DNA from: Chloroflexota bacterium
GTDB taxonomy: Bacteria > Chloroflexota > Dormibacteria > CF-121
Assembly: GCA_005881715.1 (NCBI GenBank)
Contig: VBEE01000040.1
Location: forward strand, 1 to 40,392
Reading direction: 5' to 3'
DNA length: 40,392 bases
The notes under the pieces are model-generated. The model was not told the origin of the DNA. It searched no databases and saw nothing but the letters and a program-made list of their open reading frames with translations. This document shows, one piece after another, positions 6,683 to 9,988 of this stretch. A program made the translations under genes and the position numbers. Numbering within the stretch: position 1 is the first letter of the stretch; each line of letters starts with the position of its first letter.

Positions 6683-6794
6683 TCCCCGACCTCCGCCCCG
6701 CCCCCACAGGGTGGCCCCATTCTACTGGCGGTCCACCATCCCGTCCAGCACGGCGGAATGGGCGTCACGCGAGCTGACTATGCTCAGGACATCG

Positions 6795-7481
6795 ATGTCG
6801 ACCAGGACCGTCTTGATCATCGACGGCGACGACACGTTGTGGGAGAACAACGTCTACTTCGAGCAGGCCATCGAGGATTTCATCGACTTTCTCGCCCACT
6901 CGAGGCTCAGCCGGGAGCAAGTGCGGGCCACACTCGATGAGATCGAGCGGCTCAACAGCGAGGTTCACGGCTACGGCTCGGCCGCCTTTGCTCGCAACCT
7001 GCGTGAAACCTACGAGCGATTGGCGGAACGAGCCATCGAGACCCGCCACCTCGAGCACGTGATGAATCTCGGCCGGCGGATCGTGCAGGTCGAGCTCGAC
7101 CTGCTGCCCGGCGTGGCGCCGACACTGGATTACCTGACGGCCCGGCACCGATTGCTTCTCTTTACCAAGGGCGAGCCGGAGGAGCAGACGCTCAAAGTGC
7201 AACGATCCGGCCTCGCGCCTCGCTTCGACCAGGTCGTCGTCACAAAAGAAAAAGACGTCGCCGCCTATCGAGAGCTCATCCGTGAACACGATGTGGACGC
7301 CGGCCAGGCATGGATGGTTGGAAATTCCCCGCGTTCCGACATCAACCCGGCGCTGGAGGCCGGCCTGGGCGCCGTGTTCATCCCGCACCCGCACACATGG
7401 CGATTGGAGCACGCCGATGTCCGACATGATCCGCGCCTGCTGGTCCTTCAGTCATTTGCGCAGCTCAGGGATTACTTCTAA
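6795..7481 (+). CDS. HAD-superfamily hydrolase
   Basis: A 228-aa phosphatase-type HAD protein. The motifs are complete: nucleophile D10 and acid/base D12 in 'IIDGDDTLWE', motif II Thr124 in 'LLLFTKGEPEE', a motif III lysine at 151 or 153 ('VVTKEKD'), and motif IV 'MVGNSPRSDINPA' with D182. A helical cap lies between motifs I and II (about 18-105). The substrate is not predictable. The ATG at 6795 is preceded by AGGA at about 6 nt; the upstream extension encodes nothing family-like. The stop codon overlaps the stop of the convergent selenoprotein gene by 4 bp. Confidence 0.85.
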   Translation: MSTRTVLIIDGDDTLWENNVYFEQAIEDFIDFLAHSRLSREQVRATLDEIERLNSEVHGYGSAAFARNLRETYERLAERAIETRHLEHVMNLGRRIVQVELDLLPGVAPTLDYLTARHRLLLFTKGEPEEQTLKVQRSGLAPRFDQVVVTKEKDVAAYRELIREHDVDAGQAWMVGNSPRSDINPALEAGLGAVFIPHPHTWRLEHADVRHDPRLLVLQSFAQLRDYF

Positions 7482-8953
7482 TCGCCAATCACGGTTCGGA
7501 CCTCGCCGGACCGCCAGTCCGCCAGCGCGATTCGGTGGTTGTTCGTGTCGGCGATGTAGAGTCCGCCTACCCCGGCGCAGACGCTGCCCGGCTCACGGAA
7601 CGATGCGGAAGCGGGCGGGCCGTCCGATCGGCCTGCGGCCCCGCGCCCCAGCCAGGTGGTCACGGCGCGCTGCCGCGGGTCCAACCGTTTGATCTTGTTG
7701 TTGTAGCTGTCTGCCAGGTAAAGAAGCCCGTCCCTCGCCGTGATCCCCAGCGGGTGCTGAAGACGGACGACGTTCCCCTCCCCGTCCTGGTCGCCAAACA
7801 CAAAGAGGTCCTCGCCGACCAGCGTGGTGACGACCTTCGCTCGCAGCTCGATATCTCGAACGGCGCTCACCTCCGAATCGGCCACGTAGAGGTGGCCATC
7901 CGCCAGCGCCAGTCCACTCGATTGCGCGAACCACGTCTCGCGCAGAGGCCCATCGCGTAGGCCCTCGCGACCCGTGCCAGCAAACGGCGTCACCGTTTCA
8001 TGATCGAGGTCGAGTGACCAGATCTGATGCATGCCGGCCATCGCGATGTAGAGCGTGCGCCCATCGGCGGCGAGGTCCCACGGCGAACTCAACGGTGTGG
8101 AGCGCCCGGGACCGCCGAGACCGGCCCGCACTGCCTGCACGCCGGTGCCGGCAATCGTTCGAACCGCCCCCGACCCGAGGTTGACTTCGCGCACGGCGTG
8201 GTTTTCGGTGTCGGCGACGTAGAGCCTGCCGTCGATCACTGCCATGCCCTGGGGTTGCGCAAATGCGGCAACCCCGGCCGGCCCATCGAGCAGGGCCGGC
8301 TGGCCGCTGCCGAACCTACGCCGAATCGGTCCATCGGGGCCCGCCTCAACAATCTGATGGTGATTACTGTCCGCGATGAAAAGCGCCTCGTCGCATGCCA
8401 GCACTTTCCCTGGAAAGCTCAGCGTGTGTGAGGGTTCAGCAATCCCTTCCACGGCGATAGGGGACGCGCGCGGGTTGAGCACACCCCGTGCCTCGAAGTC
8501 CAGCAACATCCGGTCGACCAATGGGTCGAATTGCTCAAAGGGCAGCTCCCCTTCGTGCCTGTCGATGATGCGGCCTTCGGGGTCGACGAAGATGAGCGTG
8601 GGCCAGGCGCGACCGCCGAAACGCTGCCACACCTGGAAGTCACGATCGTTGACGACCGGGTGCTCGATCCGGTAGCGCAGCACCGCTTCGCGCAAGTTGG
8701 CGGTTTCGCGCTCGGCGGGAAACTTCGGCGAGTGGACCCCGACGACCACCACCTTGTCGCCGTATTTCTGCTCGATCTTCCGCAACTGCGGAAAGGTATG
8801 GATGCAGTTGATTCAGCAGAAGGTCCAGAAGTCGACGATCGCCAGCCGCCCACGAAGATCGGCGATGTGCAGTGGTCGGGCGACATTGAGCCAGTCGAGC
8901 CCCTCCGGGAAATCCGGGGCACGGACCAGACCGCTGAAGGAGGGAACCGCCAC
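7478..8953 (-). CDS. Selenocysteine-containing thioredoxin/NHL-repeat protein (UGA recoded)
   Basis: Read through the UGA at 8813-8815, this frame encodes 491 aa. Residues 10-150 form a thioredoxin/TlpA-like domain and about 155-491 an NHL-repeat beta-propeller ('GLYIADTNNHRIA', 'RLYVADTENHAVR', 'LLYLADSYNNKIK'). This is the NHLRC2-type architecture, whose active site is normally F-W-T-[YF]-C-C-I-N-C. Here it reads 'DFWTFC-U-INCIHTFPQL', so UGA (codon 47) exactly replaces the first Cys of the redox CxxC, giving U-I-N-C. Reading frame and homology continue on both sides. A 6-bp hairpin with loop AGUU lies 25 nt after the UGA, as expected of a bacterial SECIS. A GTG at 8953 gives the N-terminus expected for the family; no Shine-Dalgarno is visible. 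The protein is probably a thiol/selenol redox enzyme. It is divergent from an L,D-transpeptidase. Confidence 0.82.
8778..8815 (-). promoter_or_regulatory. UGA Sec codon with candidate bacterial SECIS hairpin
   Basis: On the minus strand the in-frame UGA (8815-8813) is followed after 19 nt by a perfect 6-bp stem TTCCGC/GCGGAA (8793-8788 and 8783-8778) with tetraloop AGTT. The UGA-to-loop distance is 25 nt and G is the second loop base. Both agree with the published general model of bacterial SECIS elements (a G within the first two loop positions, spacing of roughly 16-37 nt). Confidence 0.7.
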
Positions 8954-8992
8954 CGGATCAATGGTACCGGCGGTTTCTCGAGCTTCGAACGT

Positions 8993-8998
8993 TACAAT
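8993..8998 (+). promoter_or_regulatory. Putative -10 box of the L,D-transpeptidase gene
   Basis: TACAAT lies 12 nt before the ATG at 9011. With a normal start of transcription this would leave a leader of only about 5 nt. There is no Shine-Dalgarno. Confidence 0.4.
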
Positions 8999-9010
8999 AG
9001 AGCTACCATC

Positions 9011-9988
9011 ATGTCTGCTACCGCAACTGGGGGACGCAGCCGCGTCCCACGGTCGTGGCCGGCGTTCTGGCAGCGACAGACGCGCCGCGTTGTGCGGCTC
9101 CAATGGCAGCGCCGGCGCACCCTGCTCGTCGTCGTCCTGATGGCCGGCGTCGGGCTCGGCAGTTCCGGGGTGAATGCCGTCAGTGCCGCGGGCGCGAGCC
9201 ATGGGGTCCGCGCCCAGAGCGCCGAGGCGGCCACCATCAACGCCGACGCCGGCCGGCTGGCCTCGCAGTATCGAGGCAACCGGCAGGGGCTGCTGGAGGC
9301 GGGCCGCGCCGGACTCGCCGCTGGACGGAACGACGCGACCGTCGCCGAGTTCTTGAAACTCGGCTGGGCCCGCCGGCTCGATGCCGCGCTCGAGCGAAAT
9401 GGCGCGATGCTCGACAGCGCCCATGACCAGCAGGTGGCGTTGGGGGTGGCCGGCGTTCGGTATTTCGCCTCACAAATCCACACCGGCCTGCTCCGTGCCG
9501 GCTCGGGTCAGCTGATCACCGTGTCGCTGAAAGCGCAGGAGTTGATCGCCTACGAGCGAGGTCGGGTGATCGTCGATACGCCGGTGACGACCGGCCGGCC
9601 CGCGCTGCCGACCGACATCGGCGCCATGCAGGTCCTGAGCAAGGACGCGCCCTGGACCATGAAGTCGCCCTGGCCCCGGGGGTCGGCCGAATGGTATCCG
9701 GATACACCGGTGCAGATGGTCGTGTGGTTCACGCAGAACGGCGAAGGTCTGCACGATGCCAGCTGGCAACCGAACAGCACCCTCGGACCTGGCTCCCAGA
9801 ACGGGCCGTACGCGAGTCACGGCTGCATCCACGTGCCGCTGGCCGCCGTCAGACTCCTCTTCGACTGGGCCCCGATCGGGACGCCGGTCGTGGTCTATCC
9901 CGGTGACGGATCGCCCGTAGCAGATCAGGTTGCCCAGCAGTCAGTCGACGCGCAGGGGAACCCGACCTCGGGCGTGCGGGGCGACTGA
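9011..9988 (+). CDS. L,D-transpeptidase (YkuD domain), membrane-anchored
   Basis: A 325-aa cell-wall enzyme that makes 3-3 cross-links in peptidoglycan or attaches proteins to it. A basic N-terminus and a hydrophobic segment at 38-60 suggest a signal anchor or secretion. A helical region (about 70-160) precedes the YkuD catalytic domain (about 165-297). The catalytic signature is 'SHGCIHVPLAAV' with H270 and nucleophile C272; H248 in 'GLHDASW' is the usual upstream His. The length is normal. The start lies 57 bp from the divergent selenoprotein start. The lytic transglycosylase and sortase elsewhere in the window show that several envelope-remodelling enzymes cluster in this part of the genome. 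Confidence 0.9.
   Translation: MSATATGGRSRVPRSWPAFWQRQTRRVVRLQWQRRRTLLVVVLMAGVGLGSSGVNAVSAAGASHGVRAQSAEAATINADAGRLASQYRGNRQGLLEAGRAGLAAGRNDATVAEFLKLGWARRLDAALERNGAMLDSAHDQQVALGVAGVRYFASQIHTGLLRAGSGQLITVSLKAQELIAYERGRVIVDTPVTTGRPALPTDIGAMQVLSKDAPWTMKSPWPRGSAEWYPDTPVQMVVWFTQNGEGLHDASWQPNSTLGPGSQNGPYASHGCIHVPLAAVRLLFDWAPIGTPVVVYPGDGSPVADQVAQQSVDAQGNPTSGVRGD

Follow-up and report, generated by a model that had tools for sequence, protein, structure and literature searches.

The interrupted gene and its two domains

The window analysed here is the whole stretch of 40,392 nucleotides (positions 1–40,392 of contig VBEE01000040.1) from a Chloroflexota bacterium; it lies in a fragmented MAG of 125 contigs that is 89% complete. 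On its minus strand lies a gene of 491 residues (7478–8953), which runs from a GTG start at 8953 to a TAG stop at 7478 and has a single interruption, the TGA at 8813–8815. This is codon 47, and we read it as selenocysteine (U47). The read-through product consists of a thioredoxin-like domain over residues ~10–160 (8474–8926, minus strand), matched by Pfam Thioredoxin_8 (37.6 bits), AhpC-TSA (30.5 bits) and Redoxin (27.9 bits), followed by an NHL-repeat beta-propeller over residues ~177–489 (7487–8425, minus strand), matched by Pfam NHL (106 bits) and present in the structural model described below. The codon of Cys50, the second member of the U-I-N-C pair, is found at 8804–8806 on the same strand.

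Translated with the standard code, the region gives a 203-aa ORF that ends at the TGA (8813–9424) and a 435-aa ORF (7478–8785) that starts from a TTG within a hairpin described in the next section. Standard gene calling therefore turns this gene into one spurious and one truncated ORF, as the original prediction had anticipated. The congeners speak for the start at 8953: ATG or GTG stands at the equivalent site in them, and several have in-frame stops no more than 20 codons upstream. A TACCAT box located immediately 5' of the start codon is common to the congeners (~8954–8993 of the window, minus strand), no clear Shine-Dalgarno sequence is seen there, and the mRNA may be leaderless.

Conservation of the UGA codon and of the hairpin

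After removal of duplicates we had 116 homologous genes, of which 42 have TGA at codon 47, 66 TGC, 6 TGT, one a Tyr codon and one a Ser codon, while TAA or TAG never appears at this position. Cysteine is thus encoded in 72 of the 74 homologues that do not carry UGA; the Tyr and Ser exceptions (L081 and L082) may, to judge from this replacement, have lost the redox function. In the 20,155 codons of the 42 TGA genes, all from the phylum Chloroflexota, there is no further in-frame stop. The closest relatives in the genome collection carry the TGA in register at codon 47, with homology unbroken along the full length of the protein, and the random stops elsewhere in the gene that would have spoken against recoding were not found in them. 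Within the class to which the window belongs, exactly one TGA lies inside the gene in all nine genomes of the same genus or family that have it. In a sample of 400 genomes of the phylum, in which TGA codons were counted per gene and their position was confirmed for the extracted loci only, 76 had a match: 55 with exactly one TGA, 20 with none and one a fragment that did not include codon 47. The TGA-containing gene was present in ~18 families and in 55 of the 75 informative gene-bearing genomes, so that the selenoprotein appears to be spread through the Chloroflexota. One of the UGA forms comes from a marine Dehalococcoidia genome (L041). Another (L069, JADDPP010000443.1) is in a record titled Rubrobacter (Actinomycetota); its gene sequence is identical to that of L140 in a genome (G406) placed in the phylum of the window, and the title is therefore probably a misassignment.

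When the window gene is compared with those of four congeners, most of the differences are at third codon positions, on either side of the UGA, indicating that the downstream part is under selection as protein. A nonsense mutation, or a sequencing or assembly artefact, followed by a decaying remnant can practically be dismissed as an explanation: the MAG is fragmented and its tuf gene has a likely consensus error, yet sequencing errors would not strike the same codon in 42 distinct genes from many assemblies with no other stops, the downstream substitutions are of the coding type, and the hairpin is conserved.

This hairpin, the putative SECIS element (8777–8794, minus strand), has the form UUUCCGC-AGUU-GCGGAAG, with a U.G outermost pair and the AGUU loop at 8784–8787. 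Its stem starts 18 nt and its loop 25 nt after the UGA. The original prediction had described a hairpin of six base pairs with loop AGUU, 25 nt after the UGA; the loop and the distance (measured to the start of the loop) are as described, while the stem is of 7 bp. Folding of the window RNA gave −13.4 kcal/mol (z = −2.6). The hairpin is inside the published limits for bacterial SECIS elements, i.e., a distance of 16–37 nt, a G among the first two nucleotides of the loop and a minimum free energy ≤ −7.5 kcal/mol (PMC13188914), so that the claimed agreement with the bacterial model stands. An Rfam scan of the window gave no match. Taken alone the hairpin would be weak evidence, since 4.7% of synonymous resamples of the window also reach 7 bp.

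The comparison among homologues is much more telling. All seven pairs are formed in 41 of the 42 UGA genes and six in the remaining one, against zero to five in the homologues that lack UGA. Stem variants such as CUCUCCC/GGGGGAG, CUGCCGC/GCGGCGG and CUGGCGC/GCGCCGG represent compensatory exchanges. In an alignment of 24 sequences, none of 500 shuffles reached the observed percentage paired or covariation score, although the number of doubly changed pairs was not exceptional (26 of 500 shuffles). The Leu codon that spans the loop is UUG in 42 of 42 UGA genes, where UUG makes up 10.6% of Leu codons overall, and is mainly CUG or CUC in the genes without UGA. The encoded peptide also differs, being PQLR (or SQLG, AQLR) in the UGA forms versus PDL or DEL in most of the others. 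The RNA constraint of the hairpin extends to the protein sequence. The original prediction had proposed looking among homologues for Cys or UGA at codon 47 together with conserved stem-loops, and this is the pattern that emerged; chance is excluded by the occurrence of the same codon and hairpin in 42 distinct genes.

The invariant UUG could also be taken as a start codon. The UGA would then act mainly as a terminator, and the hairpin would serve the TTG at 8785, inside it, from which the 435-aa ORF would give a separate propeller protein. We find this regulated truncation very improbable: initiation there would leave the thioredoxin fold incomplete, the 46 codons upstream of the UGA are conserved as protein, the Cys homologues make the full protein, and the SECIS loop already explains the invariance of UUG.

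Selenocysteine machinery and evolutionary history

The four genes needed for selenocysteine insertion, whose search had been proposed as a check, were all found in the same genome. There is a tRNA-Sec (selC) with a TCA anticodon that reads as UCA (57.8 bits), and profile searches detected selB (351.9 bits) adjoining selA (540 bits), as well as selD (397 bits). The selD gene is itself of the Sec type: it reads HGAG-UGA-ACKIGPEDL, followed by a hairpin GGUCC-UGA-GGACC (L110, ~1500–1580, contig C48 of the genome). This position is the known Sec site of SelD, and the genome thus contains a second, canonical selenoprotein. Another candidate, L028, was considered as a second Sec thioredoxin and rejected; its active site is CGPC and its TGA lies outside it.

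Among 32 genomes reached through the loci, selB was over the cut-off in 17 of 17 with the UGA gene versus 7 of 15 of the others (Fisher p 0.0006, a value uncorrected for kinship). The tRNA-Sec was clear in 14 of the 17; in the other three, those with L030, L035 and L069, it was missing or marginal, probably as a result of genome incompleteness.

An in-frame UGA does not by itself specify the inserted residue, and Trp, Cys or Arg could be introduced through a changed code or plain suppression, with no SECIS involved. This reading has very little probability left. There is a single in-frame TGA per gene, always at the catalytic Cys, it is accompanied by a SECIS hairpin and the full Sec machinery, and the homologues carry Cys, not Trp, at codon 47. 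On this comparative evidence the gene is almost certainly a selenoprotein, the Sec form of an NHLRC2/SOQ1-type thioredoxin-NHL protein, its UGA being decoded by means of SelB, Sec-tRNA and the hairpin.

A tree of 100 rows, built by a quick method and with several forks unsettled, placed 41 UGA genes within a single clade of 44 (SH-aLRT 97), together with three Cys members (L038, L063 and L143). It has three label changes, and L038 and L063 are on long branches. Most simply, the tree would be explained by one gain of Sec in Chloroflexota in place of Cys, followed by a few losses back to Cys with decay of the hairpin. L143, with TGC, is placed next to a Sec gene on a starred branch; its hairpin is gone, although its peptide still reads PHLRK. 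L063 keeps the AGUU letters without the full stem. Loss of Sec would be expected to leave such traces.

In the same genome, the EF-Tu gene (L017, contig C99, minus strand, ~2688–1504) has an in-frame TAG where L159 and L160 have GAG/GAA, and a GGC to TGC change five codons beyond it. Two G-to-T changes so close together suggest that the TAG is likely a consensus error of the MAG rather than recoding. Recoding of TAG, a possibility raised by this gene, was discarded on this account; the selenoprotein gene itself ends at TAG.

Structural relatives, active site and novelty

The closest solved structures, found over nearly the whole length of the protein, were those of Arabidopsis SOQ1 (7djj, E 4e-108) and human NHLRC2 (6gc1, E 7e-107). 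An AlphaFold model built from 36 sequences (pLDDT 94.7, pTM 0.92) matched 6gc1 with a TM score of 0.93 and SOQ1 (7djk) with 0.94, at ~40% identity. In the 36-sequence alignment residues 47 and 50 are invariant (reading Sec as Cys) and Cys46 is nearly so. The CC(I/V)NC motif of the NHLRC2/SOQ1 proteins is present as C-U-I-N-C, its second Cys being replaced by Sec, and Sec47 aligns with Cys90 of the human C89-C90-I-N-C93. The alignment with homologues thus confirms that the UGA is at the first Cys of the CxxC within FWTxCCINC.

Human NHLRC2 shares the Trx-NHL architecture over the full length (40% identity); it has Cys instead of Sec and an extra C-terminal domain. The lumenal domains of Arabidopsis SOQ1 contain the same module and the CCINC motif (41% identity), but SOQ1 has Cys, carries a HAD phosphatase domain and a transmembrane helix in the same chain, and resides in the thylakoid lumen. 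More distant is the C-terminal domain of Mycobacterium tuberculosis DipZ (2hyx, E 2e-21), which is thioredoxin-like with a SCINC-type site; DipZ has Cys, not Sec, and no NHL propeller. Classical thioredoxin, in contrast, is a general disulfide reductase made of a single small domain with WCGPC, unlike the two-domain CUINC protein of the window, which scored 23.3 bits with the NCBIfam thioredoxin model (cut-off 96.8) and falls outside that family.

NHLRC2 is the FINCA disease protein, and SOQ1 is tied to qH regulation in plant photosynthesis. Selenocysteine usually marks catalytic nucleophiles. That a large bacterial clade has it fixed at one Cys of CCINC argues that this site does chemistry, and singles out a residue that is likely to be the catalytic centre across the NHLRC2/SOQ1 family. 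The sequence of events is proposed to be as follows. The 7-bp AGUU hairpin would recruit SelB with Sec-tRNA(UCA), and UGA codon 47 would be decoded as Sec, a step for which the comparative genetics gives strong support. The U47-I-N-C50 site would then lie at the N-terminus of a thioredoxin-fold helix and, by analogy with NHLRC2, face the cleft to the NHL propeller. The Sec47 selenolate would be the attacking nucleophile and Cys50 would resolve the intermediate as a selenenylsulfide; Cys46 may assist, and the propeller would bind a protein or ligand substrate. A selenol/thiol redox pair Sec47-Cys50 facing the propeller cleft is the best reading. The protein is presumably cytosolic, no obvious signal peptide being apparent by eye at its N-terminus.

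In the human structure, the motif is located at the interdomain cleft, where Cys89 and Cys90 are at the surface and adjoin a cis-proline; NHLRC2 is essential and disease-linked, and its Trx domain showed no activity in the standard assay with insulin (PMC6107167). The redox role of SOQ1 has been debated (PMC10173003). Given the inactivity of the human homologue, classical disulfide reductase activity is doubtful for the bacterial protein as well, and it is a serious alternative that the protein has a dedicated substrate or catalyses a reaction other than on disulfides (peroxide, sulfenate or persulfide). We tentatively propose, giving it somewhat less than even weight, that this is an uncatalogued family and that Sec at the position of human Cys90 reveals a catalytic redox centre in the CCINC site throughout the NHLRC2/SOQ1 superfamily, one that serves a specific substrate offered by the propeller and not disulfides in general. 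If true, the bacterial Sec enzyme would give access to the reaction that underlies FINCA disease and qH regulation in plants.

The original prediction knew of no listing of this family as a selenoprotein, which holds in the catalogues examined. Neither the 2026 inventory (PMC13188914), which covers 119 prokaryotic selenoprotein families and whose table includes those of Haft and Tolstoy 2025, nor the 2022 list (PMC9312934) has an entry for NHL or NHLRC2. NHL is not mentioned in the main texts of deep-Sep (PMC12013277), the GOS survey (PMC2398784) and the 2016 survey (PMC5029168), and literature searches found no NHL selenoprotein. The catalogued UxxC selenoproteins (thioredoxin, Prx-like, thiol-disulfide isomerase-like and redoxin family) do share the thioredoxin fold, the Sec as first residue of CxxC and a bSECIS shortly after it. 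An NHL propeller or a relation to NHLRC2/SOQ1 is described for none of them (PMC13188914, PMC9312934).

Compared by description only, the broad 'Redoxin family protein' entry (PF08534, UxxC) and the marine 'Trx-like 1' and 'Prx-like 3' read clusters might contain fragments of this family. That the protein is a real selenoprotein already catalogued under one of them seems unlikely, though it deserves some weight: the PF08534 match is barely over the cut-off (27.9 versus 26.6 bits), the UGA form does occur in a marine genome, and the representatives MBA3499694.1 and HEU0032618.1 are given without architecture. Against this, the catalogues lack an NHL or NHLRC2 entry, no NCBIfam model was over its cut-off with the window protein, and Thioredoxin_8 and NHL outscore PF08534. 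What would be new is the Sec form of a known Trx-NHL family; the recoding mechanism was already known.

The neighbouring genes (HAD hydrolase, pirin, luciferase-like and others) recur solely within the genus or family of the window and therefore provide no functional link. A HAD-family hydrolase gene (6711–7481, plus strand) is tail to tail with the selenoprotein gene, in the same genus only. Plant SOQ1 is a HAD-Trx-NHL fusion (PMC6107167); the HAD neighbourhood may be a coincidence. The same genome also contains a Cys-type relative of the thioredoxin domain (L023, contig C98, 1963–2397), with the site TCINW.
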